Below are positions 8,036 through 64,000 of a stretch of DNA of 64,000 nt, piece after piece. Origin of the DNA: an uncultured Roseicyclus sp. GTDB taxonomy: Bacteria; Pseudomonadota; Alphaproteobacteria; Rhodobacterales; Rhodobacteraceae. Location: positions 887,288 through 951,287 of the forward strand of contig CANLXA010000003.1 in NCBI GenBank assembly GCA_947494975.1. Reading direction: 5' to 3'. The notes under the pieces are model-generated. The model saw only the letters and a program-made list of their open reading frames with translations, was not told the origin of the DNA and did no database searches. A program made the translations under genes and the position numbers. Numbering within the stretch: position 1 is the first letter of the stretch; each line of letters begins with the position of its first letter.

Positions 8036-8836
8036 ATGAGCACGATACTCGACAAGATCAAAGCCTATAAGCTGGACGAAGTGGCCGCCGCCAAGGCCGC
8101 ACGCCCCCTGGCGCAGGTTGAGGATGCGGCCCGTGCCGCGCCGCCCCTCCGCGGCTTTGCCGATGCGCTGCGCGCCGCGCAGGAGACCGGCTATGGCCTG
8201 ATCGCGGAGATCAAGAAGGCCAGCCCCTCCAAAGGCCTGATCCGTGCCGATTTCGATCCGCCCGCGCTTGCCAAGGCCTATGAGGGGGGCGGGGCGACCT
8301 GCCTCTCGGTCCTCACCGATACGCCGTCCTTTCAGGGCGCGCCCGCGTATCTGCAAGCCGCCCGCGCCGCCACCGCCCTGCCCTGCCTGCGCAAGGATTT
8401 CCTCTACGACACCTATCAGGTGGCCGAGGCGCGCGCCTGGGGGGCGGATTGCATCCTGATCATCATGGCATCCGTAAGCGATGCGCAAGCCGCCGAGCTG
8501 GAAGACGCCGCGCGGCATTGGGGCATGGATGCCCTGATCGAGGTCCATGACGGCGCCGAACTCGACCGCGCCATGGCGCTGAAATCCCCGCTTCTGGGCA
8601 TCAACAACCGCAACCTCAACACGTTCGAGACGTCGCTTGACACGACCCGCACCTTGGCCGCCCGTGTGCCCGCGGACCGCATGGTGATCTCCGAATCCGG
8701 GCTGTTCACGCCCTCCGATCTGGCCGATATGGCCGCCCACGGCGCGCGCAGCTTCCTGATCGGCGAAAGCCTCATGCGGCAAGGCGATGTGGCGGCAGCG
8801 ACGGCGGCCCTGCTGGCTGATCCGGTGGCGGCATAA
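8036..8836 (+). CDS. trpC: Indole-3-glycerol phosphate synthase
   Basis: A 266-residue TIM-barrel enzyme that closes the indole ring from carboxyphenylamino-deoxyribulose phosphate. The signature [13 protein letters not shown] is at about residues 58-70, followed by [27 protein letters not shown] and VISESG, all in the right order. The start is preceded by AAGGGAGGGAC, a strong ribosome-binding site. The stop codon overlaps the first base of the moaC ATG. No trpF is visible nearby; in this group trpF and trpBA usually lie elsewhere. Confidence 0.97.
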
Positions 8837-15609: not shown

Positions 15610-16596
15610 TCAATCAGTATTCGGACGGGGCACGGGGCGCGGCAGCGCCCCTATCTCCGTGTCCAGATCCGGCGCGATGCGTTGGGACGATAGGGTGACG
15701 GCGGGTTCATCAACGCCAAGCCCATCGGGGCGCATGACAGGGCGCATTGCCGGGGGCGGAGCCTGGCAATAGGGCTGATCGCTCACCCAATTGCGCATCT
15801 CTTCGCGCTTGCGGCGGGAATGGAACGGCCCCCAATCGGCGGCCACCCCCCGCATCCCCTCGGACACGACCAGATCACGCGGCACGGTCGTTGCCATGAT
15901 CCGGATGCCACAGCGCAGGTTTGCAGGCCCGCTCATCAGCGCCTCCGCCGAGCGCACATCGCAATCCCGCCACCGCGCCGTGCCCGGCGCGATCTGCACC
16001 AGCCCGAACCACTGGCCGCCACCACCCACCGCGTTGGGGCGGTGGGTGCTTTCGTGCCAGGCCAGCGTCGAGATCAGGCCGGTCCAGAACGCCGCCCGTT
16101 GCGCGGGCGAGGCCTGCTCGTATCCCGGGCACCAGGCGTGGATATCGCGCGGCACCACATCCAGAAGCGGCGCGCCGGGTCCGCGCAGCGCCGAGAGCAC
16201 CGCCGCCGTCCAGGCCGGGCCGCGCGGGTGATCGTCCCACTGCGCCGTCGGAACGGCCCAAGTATCGCGCATCGCGGGGCGGAGGGAGCGGGCCGGGGCC
16301 AGCGCCGAAATCTCCGGCTCCGGCTCGGCCAGATCCGGCGGGTCGCCGACATCCGGCTCCAGCAACGGCGCATTCAGGGCAATCTCGCCATCGGGTACAT
16401 CGGGCCGGTCCAGCGCGACGCCATCATCGATCACGCCCGATGTCACCTCCACCGCAACTTCGGCTGGCGGCTCTGCCACGGGATCCGCCTGCGCCTGCAC
16501 CGAAGCAGGCGCAAACGTGGCGCAGGCCACAAGGCCTCCGACACAGCAGATCAGGCGCAAGGCACCCATTGGCAGCCATCCCCCCAAGGTTGGCAT
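15610..16596 (-). CDS. Secreted lytic-transglycosylase-like (SLT) protein, paralogue 1
   Basis: About 328 residues. A signal peptide (MGALRLICCVGGLVACATF, with cleavage near VQAQA) precedes a Pro/Glu-rich spacer, and a C-terminal SLT-like domain covers about residues 145-300. The catalytic-Glu segment is LAWHESTHRPNAVGGGG, followed by WFGLVQIAPGTARW and conserved cysteines. Such enzymes cleave peptidoglycan glycan strands in the periplasm. Its domain closely parallels the next gene upstream, so the pair is a tandem duplication. The start at 16596 (MPTLGGW) has AGGA upstream; the ATG at 16569, with GGGGGGA upstream, is equally possible and gives a shorter signal peptide. Confidence 0.8.
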   Translation of the reverse strand: MPTLGGWLPMGALRLICCVGGLVACATFAPASVQAQADPVAEPPAEVAVEVTSGVIDDGVALDRPDVPDGEIALNAPLLEPDVGDPPDLAEPEPEISALAPARSLRPAMRDTWAVPTAQWDDHPRGPAWTAAVLSALRGPGAPLLDVVPRDIHAWCPGYEQASPAQRAAFWTGLISTLAWHESTHRPNAVGGGGQWFGLVQIAPGTARWRDCDVRSAEALMSGPANLRCGIRIMATTVPRDLVVSEGMRGVAADWGPFHSRRKREEMRNWVSDQPYCQAPPPAMRPVMRPDGLGVDEPAVTLSSQRIAPDLDTEIGALPRPVPRPNTD

Positions 16597-16650: not shown

Positions 16651-17274
16651 TCAGCCCTGGCAGTAGGGCTGGGACGAGATCCAGGCGCGCATCTCCTCGC
16701 GCTTCTGGGATTGTACGAACGGCCCCCAATCGGCCGCAACGCCACCGCGTTGTGCGGCTACGACACCGTCACGCGGGACCGTTTCGGCCCAGATCCGCAG
16801 CGCGCAGGCAATGTTCGCCGACCCGTTGGTCAAAGCCGCGCCGGACGTCGCCTGGCAGCCATAGTAGCGCGCCGTGGCCGGGCTGATCTGCACCAGCCCG
16901 AACCAGCGCCCACCGCCGCCAACGGCCTGCGGGTTCCAGGTGCTTTCGTGGCGGGCCAGCGCCGACATCAGGCCAACCCAGAACGCTTCACGGTCAGGCT
17001 CGGACGCTTCGGGATAGGCCGGACACCATTGCTCGATATCCGCGGGCACGATCTCGGGCAGAACGGCAGCATGGGTGTCGAGCGCGGCGAAGGCGGAGCG
17101 GGTCCACTCGCCTGCTTCGGGCCGGTGATCCCAGCGCATTGCGACGGTTTCGATCTCGGGATCTTCGCCGAACCGGGACACGCCCAGATCCGACAGGGCC
17201 GCGCAGGCCGACAGGCTCAGCGTGAGGGTGACGCCAGCCGCGATACGGACCAGCTGAAGAGGCAATAGGGTCAT
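16651..17274 (-). CDS. Lytic-transglycosylase-like (SLT) lipoprotein, paralogue 2
   Basis: A 207-residue lipoprotein. The N-terminus MTLLPLQLVRIAAGVTLTLS leads into a lipobox LSAC at about residues 21-24. The SLT-like domain has ALARHESTWNPQAVGGGG (catalytic Glu in HES), WFGLVQISPATARYYGC, IWAETVPRDGVV and the closing SSQPYCQG. Four conserved cysteines suggest disulphides in the periplasm. It lacks the long Pro/Glu-rich spacer of its neighbour. I chose the ATG at 17274 because it puts the lipobox in the right place; the open frame extends 39 codons further without sense. The intergenic gap to its paralogue is about 54-80 bp, so they may share a transcript. Confidence 0.83.
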   Translation of the reverse strand: MTLLPLQLVRIAAGVTLTLSLSACAALSDLGVSRFGEDPEIETVAMRWDHRPEAGEWTRSAFAALDTHAAVLPEIVPADIEQWCPAYPEASEPDREAFWVGLMSALARHESTWNPQAVGGGGRWFGLVQISPATARYYGCQATSGAALTNGSANIACALRIWAETVPRDGVVAAQRGGVAADWGPFVQSQKREEMRAWISSQPYCQG

Positions 17275-53705: not shown

Positions 53706-53780
53706 TCCGGCGTAGCTCAGCGGTAGAGCAGTTGACTGTTAATCAATTGGTCGTAGGTTCGATCCCTACCGCCGGAGCCA
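53706..53780 (+). tRNA. tRNA-Asn (GUU)
   Basis: A 75-nt cloverleaf with encoded CCA. Acceptor TCCGGCG pairs with CGCCGGA, discriminator G; D-arm GCTC/GAGC; anticodon stem TTGAC... with loop CTGTTAA, anticodon GTT; T-arm GTAGG-TTCGATC-CCTAC. An unusual three-gene operon starts 134 bp beyond it, convergent to the tRNA. No repeat of the tRNA end is visible elsewhere in the window. Confidence 0.97.
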
Positions 53781-53914
53781 AATTCACTAATCCTGTCAGA
53801 GCCTTATGCGGCGCTGTTGAAGTGCGGCAATGCAGGGTGAGGGTCTGGCGCGGCCATGGGTGGTTGGTGCGGTGATCGAAAGTCCCGCATGGGCGCATTC
53901 ACCCCTTCCTGACG

Positions 53915-56900
53915 TCAGGCGCTCCGCAGGCGGTCCACCTTGGCAAGGCCGGGGGCGAAATCCTGTTCCTGGTAGATCGATGCCGCGGCGGCGAAATGCT
54001 CCTCCGCCCTGGCGTCCTGCTTGCGGGATTGGGCGATGACCGCGAGGCCCAGATGGGCATCGGCGTCAAAAAAACCAGACGGGATTTGCCGGAACTCGAA
54101 GTACCGCTGGTAGAGCTGCTCGGCCCGTTTGACCGCACCAATCCGCAACGAAATCGCCTTCAACAGGTCGAGCGGATGCATTCTGGGCCGCGGCTGGTCG
54201 CTTGGCAGCAGGCCTGCGAGGGTCAGGAGAAACTCGGCCTCGCCAAGGAATTGGCGGTAGATCGACGCCTTGTGCCCGGCGTCCAGCGCGAAGTCGCCCG
54301 CTTGCTGGAGCCGCGCCCATCCGCGGCGAATGTGACCGTCCAGGATCATGGCAACCGCCACCTGTTGCCCGACCGGCGTGGCGAACACCTTGTCGCCGAA
54401 CTCAAGGCATTTCTGGTGCTGAGCTTCGAAAATCTCGGGCCGAATGGTTCGGTCACCCGACAGGCTCCGGGCGGCATTGATGAAGAAATGCGCCGCCTGC
54501 CAATCGACGGTACCCGGCACGGTGTATTCGATGCTTTCGTATGAGGCGCTCTGGGCGGCGTCGAGTTGACCCTTGAGGTGATGCGAAATCGACTCGGTCC
54601 ACTTGGCATAGGCGAGCGCCCAATTGCGCTTCCTGGCATGGCCGAATGCGAGCAGGGCCTCGACCGTGGCATCCATGTTCTTCATGTCGCCCAGAACGCG
54701 GTAGCGCAGGGCCGTCATGTGCAGAACCGTCTGGGTCAGGTGATCGTCATCGGTGGCGCGGGCGACCTTGCCCACCTCATCGAGGATCTCCCCGATCTCC
54801 TGCTGGTAATCACGCGGGTGGTCGATCAACGTCCAGAGCTTGATCGTTTTGACATGGGAGGCGGCATAGGTATCGCCCGCATCGACAGCAATCTGCTCCG
54901 CCTCTTCGATGATCTGCAGCGAGGCCTCGATCTGGCCGCCCACGCATTGGGCCTTGCCGTAGAGGGACATGCAGATGGTCCGGGCGACGATGTTCGTGCT
55001 GCGATCCAGCTGTGCCCGATAGGTCGTGACGATGCGGATGATCTTGGCGAAGTTGCCGTAGATATCGAGGCATCGGCACCAGATGAGGAGCGCTTCGGCC
55101 AGCACGTCCGGCGGCAATTCGGTGGGCAGATCCTCGATCAACTCGGCGCAGCGGTCCATGAATTTGTCGCAGGTCGGAAGCGCATAGACATCCAGCGCCG
55201 ATTGCGCGGCGGCGTAGTAGTGTTCCAGCGCTGGCTCAACGGCACCGGCCTGATCGAAATGGAAGGCAAGCACGGCGTTCACATCGGTGTCGTTCCCGCT
55301 GACCTCCTTGATGATCCGGGCGGCCTGCAGGTGGAGGTCTTTCTTGTGGTCACGCGGCAGGCTGCCGATGATCGCATCGCGGATCAGGGCATGGGAGAAC
55401 CTGTATCGCTGCGTCTTGGCGTCATGTTCGATCAGGCCTTGGCTGGCCGCGGTTTCCAGCACCTGATCGGCCTCCTCCGCGCGGCCCATCTGTGCCGAGA
55501 GGTAATCATGATTGATGTAGCGGTCGATGATCGCGGCGAATTTCAGGCTGGTCTTGAGGTCATTGGGCAGAAGATCGAACCGCGCGAAAATCAGGTTTTG
55601 CAAGGTGCCGATGGTTCGAATAACGGGCACGATCTCCGCGGGGTTCTGGCCCGGTTCGGTCAACCGGGCCTTGATGTGGCGCAGGATCTCTTCCGCGAAC
55701 AGGGGATTGCCTTCGGATTTTTCGTAAACCGTCGCGCTGAGGGGGGCGAGGTCTTCAAAATCGGGGAAAGATTGCTGAACGAGGGACAGAATGTTGCCCG
55801 GGCTGAGCGGCCGCAATTCGAGGGCATTGGGAACCAGCGTGGTGGACCAGGTGAAATCGTCGCGGAAGCGGCTGATCAGGACGATCTTGTCGTGGCGCGC
55901 GCGTGTCTCCAGGAATTCGCCAAGAATTTCGGCACTTTGCGCATCCATCCAGTGGATGTCCTCGAAGACGATCCGTGTATTTGTCCGCGTGGTGATGGCG
56001 TGAAACAGAAAGCCGAGGTCGCGGCGGATATCGACGGCATCGTTCTCGACCACGTGGCGCAGGCGACGTTGCAGAAGGGCGATGGTTTTCTCGGAGATCA
56101 GCCTGTCGTTTTGCGACAGATCAGCCAGCGCAGCGCCCATGTCCGCCAATGGATCCTGGCCGCGTCGCGCCACATGCGCCCGGACGATATCGGCGACGGC
56201 GGCGAAGGGCTCGTCGCGGGTGGTGACGGAGCAATTGACGAAGATGTTGGGTTGTTGGTGTTCGGGATGCTTCAGGGCCTGATGGATGAAGCGCGATTTG
56301 CCGATGCCGGCGGGCCCGTGGACCAGCCGAACCTGCGCCTGCGCCGCGTCATCGGCCAGCCACGCGCGAAACTCGGCGATCATCTCCTCGCGGCCGACAT
56401 AGTCATGCCCGCCGCGGAAGATACGCGCCTCAAGCGACGTCTTGGCCTCGAAGATATCCGTCAGCCGAAAGGCAATGACCGGATCGGGAAAGCCCTTGAG
56501 CTCGAAGGCCCCGACCTTCCGAGTCTCGGCGAACCCCTCGATCTCGTGGTGCACTTCCTCGGAGCAGAACACCTGCCCCGGCTCCGCGATGCTCTGAAGC
56601 CGTGCGGCAAGGTTCACGGCGGAACCGAGCGCATTCAGCCTGATCTGCTCGTCGATCCCGAGCCCGCCGATCAGAACCTCGCCGCCCCCGATGCCGATGC
56701 GGATATCCGGCGACACGCCGTAGCGTGCCTCGAAATCGGCCTTGCGGCCCCGAACCTTCTCCAGAATGCCGAACGCGGTCTTGCAGGCCACAAGCGCCGC
56801 GTTCTCGACGGCCTTGGGCGCGCCGAAAATGGCGAACATGCTGTCCCCGGCGAAATCGACGGGATAGCCGTCGGCCCCCCTGACGCTGTCCACGATATCG

Positions 56901-57160
56901 CGCAAGATGTCCTGCATCACGCTGAACGTGTCTTCGGCGCCGATCCGGTTGGTCAACTCGGTGGAGCCGACGACGTCGACCATGAGCGTCGCAACCCACC
57001 GCTTCTCATTCATCGTCTCATCAAGCACGGGCAGTCGTCTCGATTCATCAAAATGCGTCCAACCCGGCATTTGGGCATGGGGTAACCCTAGGTCGCCTCC
57101 GGGGAGCGGGCCATCGAATTCTAGCCTTGCCGCCTGCGGGCCACTGACACAGGTCTGCAT
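53915..57160 (-). CDS. Class III cyclase / AAA-type ATPase / TPR-like signalling protein
   Basis: A 1,081-residue multidomain protein. Residues about 50-235 are a class III adenylate/guanylate cyclase-like domain: LMVDVVGSTELTNRIG (first metal Asp), FAGDSMFAIFGAP (second Asp) and LGSAVNLAARLQSIAEPGQV (Asn and Arg). About 255-600 is a STAND/AAA-type ATPase with Walker A VHGPAGIGKSRF and Walker B RIVFEDIHWMDAQSAE. About 600-1081 is helical with TPR-like repeats. This plan resembles the LuxR/AfsR-like ATPases with cyclase. The usual Lys before the second Asp is replaced by Asp-Phe, so purine choice or activity is uncertain. The start has GGCGGAG. It lies 33 bp after the GMC gene. Confidence 0.9.
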   Translation of the reverse strand: MQTCVSGPQAARLEFDGPLPGGDLGLPHAQMPGWTHFDESRRLPVLDETMNEKRWVATLMVDVVGSTELTNRIGAEDTFSVMQDILRDIVDSVRGADGYPVDFAGDSMFAIFGAPKAVENAALVACKTAFGILEKVRGRKADFEARYGVSPDIRIGIGGGEVLIGGLGIDEQIRLNALGSAVNLAARLQSIAEPGQVFCSEEVHHEIEGFAETRKVGAFELKGFPDPVIAFRLTDIFEAKTSLEARIFRGGHDYVGREEMIAEFRAWLADDAAQAQVRLVHGPAGIGKSRFIHQALKHPEHQQPNIFVNCSVTTRDEPFAAVADIVRAHVARRGQDPLADMGAALADLSQNDRLISEKTIALLQRRLRHVVENDAVDIRRDLGFLFHAITTRTNTRIVFEDIHWMDAQSAEILGEFLETRARHDKIVLISRFRDDFTWSTTLVPNALELRPLSPGNILSLVQQSFPDFEDLAPLSATVYEKSEGNPLFAEEILRHIKARLTEPGQNPAEIVPVIRTIGTLQNLIFARFDLLPNDLKTSLKFAAIIDRYINHDYLSAQMGRAEEADQVLETAASQGLIEHDAKTQRYRFSHALIRDAIIGSLPRDHKKDLHLQAARIIKEVSGNDTDVNAVLAFHFDQAGAVEPALEHYYAAAQSALDVYALPTCDKFMDRCAELIEDLPTELPPDVLAEALLIWCRCLDIYGNFAKIIRIVTTYRAQLDRSTNIVARTICMSLYGKAQCVGGQIEASLQIIEEAEQIAVDAGDTYAASHVKTIKLWTLIDHPRDYQQEIGEILDEVGKVARATDDDHLTQTVLHMTALRYRVLGDMKNMDATVEALLAFGHARKRNWALAYAKWTESISHHLKGQLDAAQSASYESIEYTVPGTVDWQAAHFFINAARSLSGDRTIRPEIFEAQHQKCLEFGDKVFATPVGQQVAVAMILDGHIRRGWARLQQAGDFALDAGHKASIYRQFLGEAEFLLTLAGLLPSDQPRPRMHPLDLLKAISLRIGAVKRAEQLYQRYFEFRQIPSGFFDADAHLGLAVIAQSRKQDARAEEHFAAAASIYQEQDFAPGLAKVDRLRSA

Positions 57161-57193
57161 CGGTGCTCCGCCGACGGCGTCGCGGCGTTTGGG

Positions 57194-60100
57194 TCAATTG
57201 TAGGTGTTCAGCACCGCAACCAGATCGGGATAGACATCCACATCCGCCCCTTTGCCGATGAACGTGTCCATATGGCCATAGCCTTTGTAGACCTTGCGGC
57301 TGAACTTCTCGCGGGAGGCCGGCATCGAGTTGCGCAGCCACTCCACCGTGCGCAGGGAGGATCCCGGCAGAACGATGGTGTTCTGTGCCCCGGCGATGAA
57401 GTGGTTCGGGAAATCCAGGTTCTCGAAATGCGGCAGGTAGATATCCCTGCCCCTGGCACTGATCGCGTGGCCCGCGGCAAACATCGCCCCCAGCTGTTCG
57501 AAGGATTTGACCGACACCTTGCCGAACATGTCCTTGATCGCGTTGTGGGTTTCGAGGTTGAGGTTCTCGTGAAAGTAACTCGGCCCGTAGATCCCGAAGA
57601 TCCGGTGGCAGGTCGGGCTGTTGCACGGCTCGCCATTGGGGAACGGCACGCTGTACATCATCATGTCGAAGATCGTGTCGAACGTATCGTCGTCCGAGGG
57701 CACCGGCGCGACCATGTCGATCACCGGCATGCCCGACAGCGCCTTTTCGATGTCCTTGCTGCCCATGAATTTGCCGATGGCCTCGGCCACGGCCTTGGGC
57801 AAGCCCTTGTAGATCGCCTGTGCCAGATGCACGTCCGCCTTGAGCAGGTTGAACCAGTTCGTCACCGGATGCACGGTGAGCTGGGACGAGATCATGTTGC
57901 GCACCTGCGCCTTGGTGATCGTGCCTTTCAGGAGCGCCATCTGCGCGGTCAGCGCGCCGACGCAATGGCCCACGATCTGCAGGTCGGACGCGTTGGTTTC
58001 CTGCAGCACCAGGTCCACGGCCCAGGGCCAGTCATTGTCGGCGATATCGTCGATGTCGTAGGGCGCGTAATCGTTGTATTTCCCGCCTTGGGGGCTGCCG
58101 CGATAATCGAACAGCCACACGTCATAGCCGTCGGCCACAAGCGCATCCACGAAGGATTGCGCCGTCGTTTGCACGGCAAAGGATTGCGCGATCGTCGAAA
58201 TCCCCGGGGCCAGAACAACGGGGCCCTTGGCGCCGCCCTGATAGCGGATCAGCTGGCCAACGGGGATCAGGCCGGGGACTTTGGGTGGATTGGTCTCGCA
58301 CGTATAAAGAACCGAAGACACCTTGGGATGGCGCGGCAGGGGCGCGCCATCATCGGGCGGGATGGCGTTTGACGTGTCGGTGCGGCTTTCGAAATTGAAG
58401 AGGTAAGCCGGGACGCCGCCATAGGTCTCGAAGATCAGGCCCGCGAACTTGGCCGCGACGCTGGCGGCGAAATAGGCCTTGATCATCTGGATCGGCTCAA
58501 CCAGCGCGGAGGTGCTGTCGGGCACGGATTTGACGCCCAGAAGCGTCTTGATCAGGCGGTTCCAGAACGCGGTGCCCGTCAGCAGATCCTTGAGCTGCAG
58601 CTTGGTGATCGCGTCGAGCATCATCTCGATAGTGTCGCTGGCGCCTTTCGTGCCGGGATCGGGGTAGTTCGGATCAATCGTGCTGGCCTGTTTGGCCAGA
58701 TCCTGGAGACCCAGTGAAATGATACCGGTCAGGGCGACGCCGTTCTTCTGAGCGCCGGCCACGATATCGGTGTAGGTGATATCGATGGGCAGGGTCGTCA
58801 GATCATGCCACCACGTGGATCCGGGCCTGCGGCGCAGGGTCTTGTGGCCGGAGAAGGCCATGGGCCGCCGCCCGCCACTCAGCTGGCCCTTGTAGGTCAT
58901 GCGCCACTCATCAACCGTTGCCGGATCTGCCGCCAGCAGTTGGAAGGTGCCATCCACGACGTCCAGCGCCGCCTCCGTGCCGCCATCGGCGGGGTCGTTC
59001 ACGGTGAGCGTCCCGGTCAGGGGCACGGGTTTGCTATCGGCCAGCGCAAAATCCAGAGCACTGGGCGCGGAGATGGCGAAGCTGCCCACCAGCGGCTGAT
59101 CATTCGCCCGGCCCCGCGCCGCGGCGACCTCGTAGGGGTCGGACACCCCGCCTGCATGGAGCTTCTCGGGCCGCGATACGTAGCCCGACATGGTTTCCTG
59201 AAACGACAGCGGCGGGCTGACATCACCAAAACTCTTCTCGATTGCCGCCAGCACGCGCGTCACGATCGAAGAATCGTCAGGTACCGTTGCCGGATCGAAT
59301 GCGTCACACAGATCGGAGATGATCCCGAGCATGATCTTCAGCGCCGGGATCAGATCATCGCTGACATCGCTGCCGGACAGCGAATTGAAGGCGGTTTCGG
59401 TGGCCGTGTAGAGCTTGGCCTGGGCGGCGGGATCGGTCACGAGATTGTCGATCAGGTAGGATTTGAAATCCTCGATCACCGTGTCCTTGGTCAGCGACCA
59501 CCAATACGTCTCCAGCTTGCTGATCCCCGAGGACAGATCATCGCGGATCTCCACCAGCTTGTCGTGAATGATCTTGGCTTCGTCATCCGTGGGGATCGGC
59601 GTGATTTCCTGCATCAGCGGGACGGAATTCGCGGGCACCGCCGGGCCGTCCTTGACCCAGCCCTTGCGCTTGATGAGAACATCCATGGCGCGTTCCGTGA
59701 CCGCCGAAATGGTCAGCAACGGGTTGAGCCCGAGGGACGTGGGCATGACGGAGCCATCACAGACCAAAAGCCCGTCATAAACGCCCTCCCCCGACCCGGT
59801 ATAAACCTGGCAATCGGGGTTCACGACGCCGTCGGCGGCGCTATCGGCCATGCGGCAGCCGCCAACCGGGTGAACGGTGACAAGGTTCCAGTCAAACGCC
59901 TCGCTCCAGGTCGGGTTGGGCAGGTAATTCGACCAGATCGATTCCGCGTAAGTGCGCAAGATGTCGTTGTCGCGGGGATAGGGAAACTCGCGGCCCACAC
60001 CGGGCCAGTCGACGACAACGGTATCGGACGTCTGATTGTACCGCAGAAGCCCATCGGCATTGTCATGGGACATTACGAGGTAGGATTGCGTCTGCGCCAG

Positions 60101-61468
60101 AGCGCCGGTGTAGGACAGCGCCGAGATATCGCCGGCTTCCTTGAGCTGCTGGCCCAATTCGCTGATGTCCTTCAGGCGGCGGGCGGCGTCGGGGAACCGC
60201 GTGAAATCCGCCGTGACCGCATCGTTGAGAAAGAAGATCGCGGGATAGGCCGTGGCCAGCGCGCCGGGTGGGGAGCCATCTTCGATGACGAGGCCGTCCT
60301 TGACGTCATCCCCCTCGCCCATATCCACCTTGACGACCCCGGTGATACAGGGCCCCGGCCTATATTGCGGCTTGTTGGGAAGATTGCTGCCAGCCCCAAT
60401 GCTGTAGATCGGTTTGATTGGATTGGGCGGCTCCAATGGTTCCAGCGGCAGTTCCGGCCCGGCCGCATCATCGGGCGGCGGGGGTGGCACGTATTGATCG
60501 ACATTGGCATCGAACCCAAAGCCCAGAATGTCGCCATTGCCCGAAAATCCCTTGCCGAGGTTATCGGCGGAGAGCGGCAATCCGGCCATGGCGGACCGGT
60601 GCAGGATCCCGAAACTGCCCAGTGTTCCTGCGGCCACAACGACCATCTTCGCCTTGATTGCGATTGGTTTTGGAGAGGCGGCACCGGGCGAGACATCCTC
60701 CACGCTCACCACATAGCCCGACGCGTCATCGCCGCTGATTGTCTGGACCTTCGCCTCGGTGGCTATTTTCGCGCCATTGGCATGGGCATAGGGCAGGTAG
60801 TTCATCAGGGTCGTGTTCTTGGCGCCGTAATTGCAGCCCGAACAGCAATCGCCACACATGGTGCAGGCCACCTGCATATTGCCGAAATGGTTCGGGCCCT
60901 GCTTGAACGTCACATTGATCGGCGCGCGTTCAAACGTCCCCAGGCCGGTGCGTTTGGCGGACGTCTCCAGCGCGGCAAGTTTGGGCACGGTCACGTCGTC
61001 GGGAAGCGTGGTCGTCCCCAGCGCCTCGCTGGCCGTGTCGTAATACCCGTCAAGGATCGTGCCACCCTTGTAGATCGCGGGCCAGCGGGGATCGTCGAAG
61101 ACGTTCGGTTGGCATCGGAGCGCGACATTCGCGTTGATCAGGGAGCCGCCCCCCAGCCCGCAGCCGACGATGACGTGCATATCCGCGTTCAGGTGGACCT
61201 CCATGATGCCGTTGGCGCCGGGCACCAGCGGGCCGTTTTCGGCCGTCGAGACCTGCACTTCCTTTTGCACCGATCCCAGATCGGTGGGGTATTCGCCGGG
61301 CAGCACCTCCCGGCCCCGCTCCAGCAGCAGGACATTCCGGCCCGCAAGCGTCAGGCGGGCCGCGGAAATCGCACCGCCATAGCCGGACCCGATCACAATC
61401 GCATCGAAGACAGGGCTCAGATCCGTTTCCGACAGCGTCTTCGATATTCTGTGCATCGTCAGGGTCAT
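57194..61468 (-). CDS. GMC oxidoreductase fused to an alpha/beta hydrolase
   Basis: A 1,424-residue fusion. Residues 1-610 are a GMC/cholesterol-oxidase-like flavoprotein: FAD motif IVIGSGYGGAISAARL (about 25-40), VGCGLGGGSLINANVALR, a Cys cluster in CTMCGDCCSGCNYGAKNT (about 201-218), and the C-terminal VHPVGGCRMADSA with SLGLNPLLTISAVTERA. About 620-800 is helical, about 800-960 is a beta-rich extension with GTLTVNDP and FSGHKTLRRRPG. About 1080-1424 is an alpha/beta hydrolase with box GHCVGALTA, i.e. Cys where Ser is usual, and YKGYGHMDTFIGK with the His. It overlaps the upstream gene by ATGA. Substrate unknown; a sterol or long-chain alcohol is my inference. Confidence 0.88.
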   Translation of the reverse strand: MTLTMHRISKTLSETDLSPVFDAIVIGSGYGGAISAARLTLAGRNVLLLERGREVLPGEYPTDLGSVQKEVQVSTAENGPLVPGANGIMEVHLNADMHVIVGCGLGGGSLINANVALRCQPNVFDDPRWPAIYKGGTILDGYYDTASEALGTTTLPDDVTVPKLAALETSAKRTGLGTFERAPINVTFKQGPNHFGNMQVACTMCGDCCSGCNYGAKNTTLMNYLPYAHANGAKIATEAKVQTISGDDASGYVVSVEDVSPGAASPKPIAIKAKMVVVAAGTLGSFGILHRSAMAGLPLSADNLGKGFSGNGDILGFGFDANVDQYVPPPPPDDAAGPELPLEPLEPPNPIKPIYSIGAGSNLPNKPQYRPGPCITGVVKVDMGEGDDVKDGLVIEDGSPPGALATAYPAIFFLNDAVTADFTRFPDAARRLKDISELGQQLKEAGDISALSYTGALAQTQSYLVMSHDNADGLLRYNQTSDTVVVDWPGVGREFPYPRDNDILRTYAESIWSNYLPNPTWSEAFDWNLVTVHPVGGCRMADSAADGVVNPDCQVYTGSGEGVYDGLLVCDGSVMPTSLGLNPLLTISAVTERAMDVLIKRKGWVKDGPAVPANSVPLMQEITPIPTDDEAKIIHDKLVEIRDDLSSGISKLETYWWSLTKDTVIEDFKSYLIDNLVTDPAAQAKLYTATETAFNSLSGSDVSDDLIPALKIMLGIISDLCDAFDPATVPDDSSIVTRVLAAIEKSFGDVSPPLSFQETMSGYVSRPEKLHAGGVSDPYEVAAARGRANDQPLVGSFAISAPSALDFALADSKPVPLTGTLTVNDPADGGTEAALDVVDGTFQLLAADPATVDEWRMTYKGQLSGGRRPMAFSGHKTLRRRPGSTWWHDLTTLPIDITYTDIVAGAQKNGVALTGIISLGLQDLAKQASTIDPNYPDPGTKGASDTIEMMLDAITKLQLKDLLTGTAFWNRLIKTLLGVKSVPDSTSALVEPIQMIKAYFAASVAAKFAGLIFETYGGVPAYLFNFESRTDTSNAIPPDDGAPLPRHPKVSSVLYTCETNPPKVPGLIPVGQLIRYQGGAKGPVVLAPGISTIAQSFAVQTTAQSFVDALVADGYDVWLFDYRGSPQGGKYNDYAPYDIDDIADNDWPWAVDLVLQETNASDLQIVGHCVGALTAQMALLKGTITKAQVRNMISSQLTVHPVTNWFNLLKADVHLAQAIYKGLPKAVAEAIGKFMGSKDIEKALSGMPVIDMVAPVPSDDDTFDTIFDMMMYSVPFPNGEPCNSPTCHRIFGIYGPSYFHENLNLETHNAIKDMFGKVSVKSFEQLGAMFAAGHAISARGRDIYLPHFENLDFPNHFIAGAQNTIVLPGSSLRTVEWLRNSMPASREKFSRKVYKGYGHMDTFIGKGADVDVYPDLVAVLNTYN

Positions 61469-62970
61469 ACCAGCCCCCCCGATGACCGTGCATCGTCTTC
61501 CGCCCTCTGGGCATTGCGCAAGAACATCTGCTGCTTGTCCAGCAGGCCCGCCGCCACGACGTAGGAGAATTTGCTCCACTCCGCCTCCGCCGCGTCCACC
61601 GCCTTGGTCAGGGACTGGAAGAGCGGGTTGTCCTCATCCGATGTGGGATCGGCGGAGACCACACTTACCTGCCCCACATCACTTTCATCGGGCAGGACCG
61701 TCCCGTCATCGGCGACGATCGTCTTGCGATTGAGTGGCATTTCGAACAACCGAAGGGCGGCGGTGTTCAGGTCGTCATCCACAAACACCGCCGACGCGCC
61801 CTCCACGGTGCTCAGAAGCGCGGTATCGAGCACCCATCCGCCGGTATTGTAAACCGTGACGGGCCGCGCGTATCCCGGCACAACCATCTGATCCTCAAAG
61901 GGTTTATGGGTATGGCCGAACACGAATGTCAGATGCTCGGGCCTGGGATCAGGCAATTCGGCGTCGATCTGCGTGCGCACGGTTTCCGACAGGTATCGCT
62001 TCAGGCCCTCAATCGAACTCTCCGAGAGGATCCTGGTATAGTCGAACCGTTCCAGCGTCGAAAACCGCCCCAGCAAGCTGTCCACGATGGCGTGGCTGAT
62101 GTAATCGAGCCCCCGCGAGATATTCTGCGATTCCGGTAGCGGCAGCATGTCCTGCATTTTCTGGGCCAGAATCCCGGAAATCCGGTTCTGCAATTGATGT
62201 GACGCCCCGCCGGTCGCCAGCAATTTCATGAAGCTGGCCATATCGTCCCCAAGCTCGCCCAGATCCCCCAGCGTGGACCAGCCGAAATCGATCCAGCTGC
62301 CATTGGCCTGTTCCAGTTTTTCCGCCGTCCACGCCCCGTCCTGATGGCCGCTGAGCAATTCGAGAAACCGCGTCATCAACGAATAGAGGCTTTCCACGTA
62401 ATGCCCGTGATGGAACACGACGGCGCGGGTTCCGTCCGGGCTGCACCAGCCGAAATTCGGGTTGTAGGTGGCGACCTGCAGATCAACGTCCAATTCGGCG
62501 ATCACTTCGTTGATGAGGGTTGTCGTGCCCACATCGTCCGGCGGCGCGAAGGCCTTGGTCGTGTGGGCCCAGAATTTGGGGTTATCCAGGTCGATATCCG
62601 GTGTCGGGGTCCGGCCGAACCGGTCCGCCGTCCAGACCTCGTGGTCGTGGTTTCCGGGCAGATAGAAGACCTGGCCGAAGACCGTCTCCCGCGTGCCTTC
62701 ATGGAGAAGGATGTTTCCCAGAAAGGTCCTGAGGATCGAGGTCGTGACATAAGGCGACGCAAACGACAGATCCAGAAGATCCCCGTGCAGGATCAGCTCC
62801 GGTTTTTCGGGCAGCGCCATATGCGTGAGGGTCGCATGAAGCGCGCGCATGAAGGTGATATTGGTGAAGGTATCAACCGCGATATCGGGATTGTCGCTCT
62901 TGTCCAATCCCGTGAACAGGCTGTTCCTTGCACCGACATGCAGATCGGAAATGGCGATGCGTAAGGCCAA
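61465..62970 (-). CDS. Calcineurin-like metallophosphoesterase
   Basis: A 501-residue protein with the calcineurin-type fold. Metal ligands are ISDLHVGARN (Asp9, His11), LHGDLLDL (Asp64), YLPGNHDHE (Asn107, His108), VFHHGHYVES and FVFGHTHKPFEDQ. A helical insert of about 150 residues sits between the last two. The start is a TTG at 62970 with GAGGGACG upstream, directly before the conserved strand LRIAISDLHVG; the open frame runs much further but is not protein-like. It overlaps the GMC-hydrolase start by ATGA, so it leads the operon. Phosphomonoester, diester or cyclic nucleotide are all possible substrates. Confidence 0.87.
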   Translation of the reverse strand: MALRIAISDLHVGARNSLFTGLDKSDNPDIAVDTFTNITFMRALHATLTHMALPEKPELILHGDLLDLSFASPYVTTSILRTFLGNILLHEGTRETVFGQVFYLPGNHDHEVWTADRFGRTPTPDIDLDNPKFWAHTTKAFAPPDDVGTTTLINEVIAELDVDLQVATYNPNFGWCSPDGTRAVVFHHGHYVESLYSLMTRFLELLSGHQDGAWTAEKLEQANGSWIDFGWSTLGDLGELGDDMASFMKLLATGGASHQLQNRISGILAQKMQDMLPLPESQNISRGLDYISHAIVDSLLGRFSTLERFDYTRILSESSIEGLKRYLSETVRTQIDAELPDPRPEHLTFVFGHTHKPFEDQMVVPGYARPVTVYNTGGWVLDTALLSTVEGASAVFVDDDLNTAALRLFEMPLNRKTIVADDGTVLPDESDVGQVSVVSADPTSDEDNPLFQSLTKAVDAAEAEWSKFSYVVAAGLLDKQQMFLRNAQRAEDDARSSGGLV

Positions 62971-63308
62971 AGCTGACGTCCCTCTAACATAATGAAGCGT
63001 ATAGGGATTCGGCAGCAAAGCAAGCGCCGCGAGAGGTGGTTTTCGGGGAAGGCCACATGGCCCCGACGCGACCTGTCGTTGGGACATACCGCTTGCGAGC
63101 AGCGGACTTTTGGATCGCCGACCCACGGGGAGATGAGCACGACGATCCCCAACCCGTACGCCGGCCCCGCCCCCCGGCATCGCCTCCGTCCGCGCAATTC
63201 CGCTCCATTTGTCGGGTAATCTTCGGGACATTCGCGCCCCGGCGAGAGCGTTTGTTAATCCCTGTCCGCCACATTTTCGCCACGGTTCGTGGAACAAGGG
63301 GTGGCGAT
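62971..63308. other. Divergent intergenic region, no gene seen
   Basis: These 338 bp separate the leftward operon from the rightward haem-oxygenase-like gene and should hold both promoters. A weak minus-strand TTGCTG-18-CATTAT lies just before the operon. No palindrome or known operator is clear. Confidence 0.4.
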
Positions 63309-63923
63309 ATGCAACGAACAACGGATTACTCATTGAAGGATCGGATTGATGCCGAAACCTTCATCGACCGCGGCGCGGTCAGGGAGGCTTTCAACCAATT
63401 CGACATAACAACGCGCGACGGATATCTTGGGATCCTGACGGCCCATGAACGGGCGTTGCATAGCCTAGCGCTTGCGCGAACGTCATCCCGGCTGCGGACC
63501 GCGGCAGATGCGGATGTCGATCACCTGCTGGCGCGGATCCGAGCCGATCTGACCTGCCTTGGGCAAGTGGGCTGGGGTGATGTGGCCCTTCCCGGTTCCG
63601 AAACGCCGTTGAACGGGACGGCGCTTGAATATGTCCAGGCGGGATCGCGGCGGGGATTGCGCGCGTTGCGTCAGGTGTGGTCCGGCTCCGCCGATGAGGC
63701 CGTGCGATCTACCTCCCGCTTCCTGACCAGCACCCACAACCCGGCGCGGTGGCGCTCGATCTGTGATCATCTGGATCGGTGCCCGGCCACGGGCGCCGAC
63801 GCCAATGGAGTGGTTGCGGATACGCGCCGGATTTTCTCCATTTATCGGGCCGCTCTGGCCTGGCGCGCGCCCCGGCAACTGCATCCGGACGTGGCGGACG
63901 CCCCTTTTGCCATGGCCAGCTAG
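63309..63923 (+). CDS. Haem-oxygenase-like protein lacking the usual proximal His
   Basis: A 204-residue helical protein whose layout resembles bacterial biliverdin-producing haem oxygenases (BphO/HemO). The segment NGTALEYVQAGSRRGLRALR fits their distal-helix pattern (Y/V-x-x-GSxxG). A C-terminal RRIFSIYRAALAW helix follows. In the N-terminal helix, where known enzymes have RxAHxxL/F, this protein reads VREAFNQFD, with Phe28 where His would be. If the alignment is right, haem cannot be ligated normally, so it may have another role. AAGGGGTGG precedes the ATG. A phytochrome partner, if any, would lie outside the window. Confidence 0.6.
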   Translation: MQRTTDYSLKDRIDAETFIDRGAVREAFNQFDITTRDGYLGILTAHERALHSLALARTSSRLRTAADADVDHLLARIRADLTCLGQVGWGDVALPGSETPLNGTALEYVQAGSRRGLRALRQVWSGSADEAVRSTSRFLTSTHNPARWRSICDHLDRCPATGADANGVVADTRRIFSIYRAALAWRAPRQLHPDVADAPFAMAS

Positions 63924-63964: not shown

Positions 63965-64000
63965 CTGTTGGGAGGGAGAGAGTGGGGCCCGGGATCGGGC

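Follow-up and report, generated by a model that had tools for sequence, protein, structure and literature searches.

In a 64,000-nucleotide stretch of DNA from an uncultured Roseicyclus sp. (Rhodobacteraceae; contig CANLXA010000003.1; hereafter the window), three minus-strand open reading frames (ORFs), all confirmed in the window, form a conserved unit that is undescribed by our literature searches. They encode a calcineurin-like metallophosphoesterase (MPE), a fusion of a GMC oxidoreductase with an alpha/beta-hydrolase, and a class III cyclase joined to an AAA_16 ATPase. Searches of the open-access PMC literature for this gene combination or its parts gave no description of the combination, and no named system with the combination emerged from our searches, as the original prediction had held. 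Our preferred reading, to which we assign a probability of roughly 0.5, is that the MPE and the fusion are a co-inherited catalytic pair that works, under a cyclase-ATPase switch, on a lipid alcohol, sterol-like or otherwise. We regard the linkage of the genes as well supported and treat the substrate, reactions and regulation as predictions. The genes, with lengths in amino acids (aa), lie as follows.

61465..62970, minus strand: MPE, a 501-aa calcineurin-like metallophosphoesterase that starts with TTG at 62970 and whose stop codon ends at 61465
61465..61468, minus strand: ATGA shared by the end of the MPE and the beginning of the GMC fusion, read from the sequence and the ORF ends
57194..61468, minus strand: GMC-hydrolase fusion of 1,424 aa, from an ATG at 61468 to a stop codon that ends at 57194
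53915..57013, minus strand: class III cyclase/AAA_16 ATPase protein; 1,032 aa with the conserved ATG as its start, or 1,081 aa with the ATG at 57160

The original prediction described these as an operon of three minus-strand genes with an ATGA overlap and a 33-bp gap. The strand and the overlap (61465-61468) were confirmed, and the gap proved to depend on the cyclase start: it is 33 bp from the ATG at 57160, a codon that is ACG in sister genome G010, and 180 bp from the ATG at 57013, which is present in both genomes. Because the first of these starts is lost in G010 and the second is conserved, the gap is probably 180 bp. The two genomes are about 94% identical over the trio stretch, and a codon comparison between them gave low ratios of nonsynonymous to synonymous substitution (dN/dS) for the MPE (0.121), the fusion (0.083) and the cyclase (0.107); thus, by this measure, all three genes are under purifying selection and hence maintained. 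Between one gene of the trio and the next, a simple scan detected neither terminator-like nor promoter-like sites on the minus strand, and its totals did not exceed those of shuffled sequence (terminator-like, 8 vs. 6.6 ± 2.8; promoter-like, 1 vs. 2.6 ± 1.6). The trio is a candidate for a single transcription unit.

The linkage recurs across the family. In profile searches of 295 Rhodobacteraceae genomes, the fusion was found in seven and the MPE in eight, and every fusion genome also had the MPE (Fisher P = 2e-13, relatedness ignored). The two genes were adjacent in six of the seven and lay on two contigs in G196. A class III cyclase adjoined the MPE or the fusion in 8/8 MPE genomes, the window's included. 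Four of these genomes have a single PF00211 match (G115, G196, G238 and G244), G099 has two, the window's genome three and G182 four; adjacency says little in G264, where cyclases are numerous (19 matches). The order MPE-fusion-cyclase was collinear in four genomes (G000, G099, G115 and G244) and the cyclase was divergent from the MPE in the other four (G182, G196, G238 and G264), so the operon is firmer for the MPE-fusion pair than for the trio. Within the genus, 2/13 genomes carried the fusion. A phylum-wide sample was uninformative on linkage, with the MPE in 1/398 genomes, the window's own. Among the top 48 cyclase homologues, 27 matched a listed fusion or MPE homologue by the size of the longest contig, a proxy for a shared contig that was entered by hand from three 120-row homologue lists. 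The nearest named homologues belong to Shimia, Limimaricola, Aliiroseovarius, Yoonia and Roseovarius.

For the wider spread, we assembled 86 loci, namely the best 80 of 492 confirmed relatives among named genome contigs plus six plasmid loci. The fusion was of a long type (defined as >1,200 bits) in 24, and the MPE stood immediately upstream in 23 of them; the 24th, L013, begins at a contig edge. Eight of the 24 had a class III cyclase within the stretch examined: Shimia, Aliiroseovarius, Jannaschia, two more Rhodobacteraceae metagenome-assembled genomes (MAGs), Rhodospirillales bin L013, Burkholderiales MAG L020 and Saprospiraceae MAG L015, with the taxa of trio-bearing MAGs taken as binned. 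The trio thus recurs as a unit in other genomes of the family, in Burkholderiales and in Saprospiraceae, and the objection that its genes are never found together elsewhere fails. The other 16 long-type loci (Erythrobacter, Qipengyuania, comamonads and a gammaproteobacterial MAG; L025, L026 and L031 are short contigs) carried the MPE and the fusion with no cyclase within that stretch. A metallophosphoesterase of some kind was present in 67/86 loci: 26 of the window type, 33 like a Pseudomonas PF00149 protein, five like an annotated Azospirillum metallophosphoesterase, L055 and L072 recognized by motif, and L009 with a fused PhoD. A generic phosphoesterase motif search added only L055 and L072. 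Because a phosphoesterase occurs in 67/86 loci and 16 of the 24 long-type loci showed no cyclase in the stretch examined, the GMC-hydrolase/phosphoesterase link is older and broader than the cyclase link.

The fusion and the MPE also co-vary. Their pairwise distances correlated at r = 0.96 (n = 28 loci; 0/2,000 permutations), with species relatedness uncontrolled in this and the following comparisons, from which L090, L091, L106 and L111 (duplicates or a fragment) and L013 (no MPE visible) were excluded. Across the 12 trio loci, the correlations were 0.62 for fusion and MPE, 0.41 for fusion and cyclase (40/2,000 permutations) and 0.72 for MPE and cyclase. A second conserved arrangement was seen in Pseudomonas and relatives, where the genes run in the order short-type fusion, RoxA-like cytochrome c protein, PF00149 phosphoesterase (L044:13627-16764); 29 further loci resemble L044 in the first gene, Pfam having been run on L044 only.

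The fusion matches GMC_oxred_N/C and Abhydrolase_1 in Pfam, and its parts are, in order, a GMC oxidoreductase, a helical bundle, a probable beta-barrel and a Cys-nucleophile alpha/beta-hydrolase. Its scores for PF00732 (57 bits) and PF05199 (52 bits) both exceed the cut-offs.

59669..61420, minus strand: GMC oxidoreductase part, residues about 17-600; cholesterol oxidase is the closest solved relative
60833..60865, minus strand: four-Cys stretch C202-x2-C205-x2-C208-x3-C212, inside the GMC part, not in the aligned 1coy
59228..59656, minus strand: helical bundle, residues about 605-747, from the predicted structure
58715..59209, minus strand: antiparallel beta domain, residues about 754-918, from the predicted structure
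57197..58381, minus strand: acid-lipase-like alpha/beta-hydrolase domain, residues about 1030-1424

The best PDB sequence match of the GMC half was cholesterol oxidase (1coy, E 2.9e-21). In the C-terminal GMC part, His533 (59870-59872) and Asn582 (59723-59725), which we take to be catalytic, were conserved in 55/55 fusions scoring >1,000 bits, a set from which 22 near-identical Pseudomonas loci had been removed and in which the sister copy L103 and the duplicates L106 (of L019) and L008 (of L042) remain. In the same set, C202 was conserved in 54/55 and C205, C208 and C212 in 55/55; this stretch is a possible metal or Fe-S site. The shared features with cholesterol oxidases of the GMC type (1coy, 4u2l) are the FAD-binding GMC fold, the GSGYGG motif and a C-terminal GMC segment with Asn, but the match covers about 40% of the fusion, which has four extra conserved Cys and no signal peptide or long hydrophobic segment that we could see. 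The antiparallel beta domain is probably a barrel in the model. For the fusion, fold comparison was mainly over residues 425-819 of the model, and the helical bundle and beta domain were seen only within the whole model.

The closest fold to the hydrolase half is lysosomal acid lipase, and the alpha/beta-hydrolase fold with the acid-lipase cap arrangement is present. The Ser-Asp-His triad of the acid lipases is altered: the predicted triad has Cys1169 (57962-57964; conserved in 55/55) in place of Ser and Asn1363 (57380-57382) in place of Asp, with His1399 (57272-57274) retained. Such a Cys-His-Asn triad is predicted to work through an acyl-thioester intermediate and would favor acyl transfer as much as hydrolysis. 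Compared with lysosomal acid and gastric lipases (6v7n, 1k8q, 1hlg), the fusion is bacterial, cytosolic by prediction and joined to a flavoenzyme. The two closest folds, cholesterol oxidase and lysosomal acid lipase, fit the lipid or sterol-like oxidation and ester/thioester chemistry proposed originally. The fusion family is large, with 2,554 homologues at E 0.001 among 7,994 candidates scored, and two variants of its architecture were observed. Ensifer has a 1,918-aa chain (L009:9818-15574) of GMC, alpha/beta-hydrolase and C-terminal PhoD-like phosphatase, adjoined by a divergent cyclase. Two adjacent genes replace the fusion in cyanobacteria, Nitrospira, an acidobacterium and Chloroflexi (L054, L055, L065, L069 and L082), encoding a GMC protein of about 780-810 aa and a hydrolase of about 350 aa, with an acetoacetate-decarboxylase-like gene near in 4/5.

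For the MPE, several homologues carry the PF00149 assignment, and the dimetal motifs (DxH, GD, GNHD, H and GHxH) are conserved in a 21-sequence alignment, in which one sequence begins past the first Asp, and also across 50 sequences. The predicted fold resembles LpxH at about 15% identity, but the MPE has a large helical insert (model residues about 193-340) and a GMC fusion as its genomic partner. The nearest solved folds are LpxH, the acid-sphingomyelinase-like SMPDL3B and purple acid phosphatase, none of which is a cyclic-nucleotide phosphodiesterase. SMPDL3B was the top Foldseek row and, after realignment, was absent from the 50 matches listed, which excludes nothing. A PDB sequence search with the MPE profile returned nothing under E 0.04, leaving the fold comparison alone as informative, and an NCBIfam scan at E 0.01 matched no LpxH model. 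Esterase-family genes lie directly upstream of the MPE in eight sphingomonad-type loci (PF00144, tested on L014 only) and three comamonad-type loci (Abhydrolase, tested on L027 only). All three trio proteins look cytosolic by prediction, with no long hydrophobic segment found.

The third protein scores above the cut-offs for Guanylate_cyc (PF00211, 62.9 bits) and AAA_16 (51.5 bits), and the order of cyclase then AAA_16 is common to it and its relatives.

56468..57007, minus strand: cyclase catalytic domain, from Pfam and alignments to CyaB and CyaC
55877..56398, minus strand: AAA_16/STAND-like ATPase domain, with GPAGIGKS and IVFEDIHWMD, which we take to be a P-loop and a Walker-B-like motif

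The putative metal-binding Asp13 and Asp57 are retained in the cyclase, as are Asn134 and Arg138 (1,032-aa numbering); the roles of these residues, and of the base-selecting positions considered below, are our assumption. Of the domain families given in the original prediction, the phosphoesterase, the GMC plus alpha/beta-hydrolase and the cyclase plus AAA ATPase were confirmed. As to the TPR-like repeats, no TPR family matched the window cyclase in Pfam at E 0.01, and TPR families occur in some close cyclase relatives (TPR_12 in L110 and in several of the listed homologues).

The third gene is exchangeable. A PAS histidine kinase takes its place in L026 and a 7TMR-DISM histidine kinase in L062; a different, membrane-type cyclase (7TMR-DISM class III) adjoins the MPE-fusion pair in the Bacteroidia MAG L040; and in L004, L017, L029 and L035, a winged-helix/STAND/TPR protein is convergent with the fusion (Pfam tested on L004). 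That other sensors replace the cyclase-ATPase where it is missing supports a role for the cyclase as a sensor-regulator rather than a metabolic enzyme. MalT and similar STAND proteins switch by inducer binding (PMC4381067), and by analogy the cyclase-ATPase may be switched in the same way. Like it, these regulators have a P-loop ATPase with a long sensor-like region after it; the output of the window protein is a cyclase and not a DNA-binding domain.

Proteins that could read the product adjoin 6/12 trio loci (L011, L012, L021, L105, L107 and L108). These cyclic-nucleotide-binding proteins are Crp-type regulators at L011, L012, L021, L107 and L108 and a SulP-STAS-cNMP protein at L105. Small proteins of about 231-237 aa with a C-terminal cNMP domain also occur (L011:14409-15104, L105:87-800 and L107:16521-17216), and their N-terminal part has no Pfam match and is hydrophobic by eye. 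Across nine trio or MPE genomes, six of 79 PF00027 matches lay near the trio (two below cut-off; three in G238, two in G244 and one in G115), vs. 0.57 expected per 30-kb stretch. The window's genome has 16 PF00027 matches, all away from the trio. Linkage of a class III cyclase gene to a cyclic-nucleotide receptor gene has been described for Xanthomonas XC_0250/XC_0249 (PMC3770947), where, as far as the abstract goes, the output is cyclic di-GMP signaling and no GMC protein or MPE is named. Contig C89 of G182 holds a further class III cyclase (15855-16397) and cyclic-nucleotide-binding proteins (16721-16981 and 8288-8545), perhaps a similar signaling cassette.

In the mechanism that we propose, the STAND-like ATPase part would bind an inducer or substrate and assemble, turning the cyclase on. 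The cyclic nucleotide would be read by Crp-type regulators, which stand beside the trio in some relatives and elsewhere in the window's genome, and these would turn on the catalytic pair. From its fold and residues, the GMC half is predicted to carry out FAD-dependent oxidation of a lipid-like secondary alcohol, and the acid-lipase-like half deacylation or transacylation through its Cys-His-Asn triad. On the same intermediate, or on an adjacent one, the MPE would remove a phosphate or cleave a phosphodiester or pyrophosphate.

Several observations weigh against this reading. At the level of the proteins, the MPE falls marginally below the Pfam Metallophos cut-off (21.4 vs. 21.5 bits) and the fusion does not reach that of the NCBIfam cholesterol-oxidase model NF058674 (161 vs. 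850 bits). Where CyaB has its base-selecting Lys and Thr, the window cyclase has Asp53 and Asn127, which is atypical. Since the cyclases found close to short-type fusions in L007 and L009 are without the first metal Asp, and the base positions are atypical, cyclase activity may not be universal among the loci. At the level of the genomes, G264 has the MPE and a cyclase with no fusion at E 1e-5, 19/86 loci have no phosphoesterase of the kinds sought, and the cyclase tracks the MPE better than the fusion in the 12 trio loci. No cyclic-nucleotide-binding gene was found beside the trio in G010, G099, G182, G196 or G264, or in the window, where the search used a Crp-built profile and the contig ends at 64000.

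A more elaborate version of lipid remodeling, gated by a cyclic nucleotide, strikes us as rather unlikely. Here a STAND cyclase would respond to a trigger by making a non-canonical cyclic nucleotide, and the oxidase/acyltransferase and the LpxH-like enzyme would rebuild sterol-like or membrane lipids; the membrane and transporter cNMP proteins of relatives would be gated as well, possibly within an island-borne defense or stress programme.

The original prediction coupled the lipid chemistry to nucleotide signaling in which the cyclase makes and the phosphoesterase breaks the messenger; on this view the fusion would be the controlled enzyme. It remains a live but weaker rival, which we consider unlikely. 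Calcineurin-like enzymes include cyclic-nucleotide phosphodiesterases, a point that we count for it, and the cyclase and MPE share a locus, in G264 without the fusion, and correlate at 0.72 in the trio loci. However, the MPE stays with the fusion in the 16 long-type loci (of 24) that showed no cyclase in the stretch examined and follows it at r = 0.96 over 28 loci, and its nearest folds (LpxH, SMPDL3B and purple acid phosphatase) are not those of cyclic-nucleotide phosphodiesterases. Moreover, short-type fusions are paired with other phosphoesterase subfamilies, and that of Ensifer has PhoD fused at its C-terminus. A make-and-break pair is thus not favored.

The genomic setting bears on the remaining alternatives. 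A tRNA gene adjoins the 3' end of the trio and is given here as context, outside the proposed mechanism.

53706..53780, plus strand: tRNA-Asn

In nine relatives examined (L132-L140), similarity to the window ends at the tRNA 3' end (53780-53791), and in four of the nine a second, 45-56-bp copy of that end lies 7-10 kb on, as an integrated island would leave. By these boundaries, the tRNA-Asn is apparently a hotspot for integration within the genus. Two of the islands have an integrase-like ORF (by eye) and two have ORFs matching defense models: L133:2938-5343 matches MkoA, mad6, PD-T4-6 and LmuA, and L132:2596-3855 matches AbiZ. The far side of a possible island lies outside the window, since the contig stops at 64000. 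Upstream of the MPE, a divergent plus-strand ORF (63036-63923) has no Pfam match at E 0.01; contig C3 of G010 starts, and the window's contig ends, at nearly the same point, and this shared assembly break suggests a repeat there. A mobile-element reading of the trio was rejected because proximity to a tRNA is not general: of 12 other loci scanned, 11 had none in the stretch examined, and L010 alone had one, about 6.6 kb beyond the trio.

It is improbable, in our judgement, that the trio is a Pycsar-type anti-phage or stress defense, in which the STAND-cyclase would sense infection and the nucleotide or the enzymes would damage the cell's own lipids. Its sporadic distribution (2/13 in the genus) and its position next to the tRNA-Asn, at which relatives have islands, some of them matching defense models, fit such a role, as do the matches of the cyclase to 12 PycC models (best E 3.7e-15, threshold 0.01) and the small proteins beside L011, L105 and L107 that join a non-cNMP N-terminus to a C-terminal cNMP domain. 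The PycC models are models of class III cyclases, however, so that these matches are generic; PADLOC has no model that matches the fusion or the MPE; and the PycTIR matches of neighbors fall on the cyclic-nucleotide-binding part rather than on a TIR domain. What the trio shares with Pycsar is a class III-type cyclase and, in relatives, cyclic-nucleotide-binding partners, but no TIR or transmembrane effector was found beside the window cyclase with the Crp-built profile on the contig up to its end at 64000, and enzymes stand there instead. Few of 59 neighbor proteins match defense models at 1e-10 (six families), the tRNA is not general, as noted above, and the exchange with histidine kinases and the linkage to esterases look metabolic. 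A search for a defense partner with PADLOC, covering the trio, the 59 neighbors from 11 trio loci and nine cyclic-nucleotide-binding neighbors, gave nothing convincing. The 59 were picked from 90 ORFs by excluding short and contig-edge ORFs and all of L103 and L110 and adding one, and several lie in GC-rich DNA and are possibly not genes.

We give equally little chance to the synthesis of a polymer or storage lipid, in which the hydrolase half would be a PhaC-like acyl polymerase with a Cys nucleophile. The GMC half would supply it, and the MPE would recycle a phosphorylated primer or carrier. A Cys nucleophile in an alpha/beta-hydrolase is indeed common to the fusion and the polyhydroxyalkanoate synthase PhaC, but the fold score is lower and the fusion reaches 21.7 bits against a cut-off of 365 for TIGR01836 (PhaC III). 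PhaC has an acidic residue where the fusion has Asn. That the three genes are unrelated passengers of a genomic island, neighbors by chance, as the tRNA-Asn hotspot and patchy distribution might suggest, is very improbable and already contradicted by the neighborhood counts, given their recurrence in rearranged order (including genomes whose sole class III cyclase adjoins the MPE, and other taxa) and the 27 of 48 cyclase homologues that apparently share a contig with a listed fusion or MPE homologue.

Among other systems that resemble the cyclase, the TOMM kinase/cyclase model TIGR03903 aligns with residues 47-657 of the cyclase-ATPase at 158 bits, but its cut-off is 706 bits and no kinase domain was matched. 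LipJ (Rv1900c), a fusion of alpha/beta-hydrolase and cyclase, likewise brings hydrolase and cyclase chemistry into one unit, and its model NF058673 matches the window cyclase at 32 bits; in contrast to the trio, LipJ is one protein without a GMC part or an MPE, and the cut-off of 800 bits is far above that match.

If the reading of a catalytic pair under a cyclase-ATPase switch is correct, a widespread, uncharacterized family would join alcohol oxidation and acyl chemistry in one chain, and an acid-lipase fold with a Cys-His-Asn triad would favor acyl transfer. The trio is small, three genes in a culturable marine bacterium, and so directly testable. Since the lipid that the cyclase would sense is hinted at by the neighboring enzymes, the trio would also provide one of the few defined pairs of input and output for the many bacterial cyclase-ATPase-TPR proteins with obscure signals.

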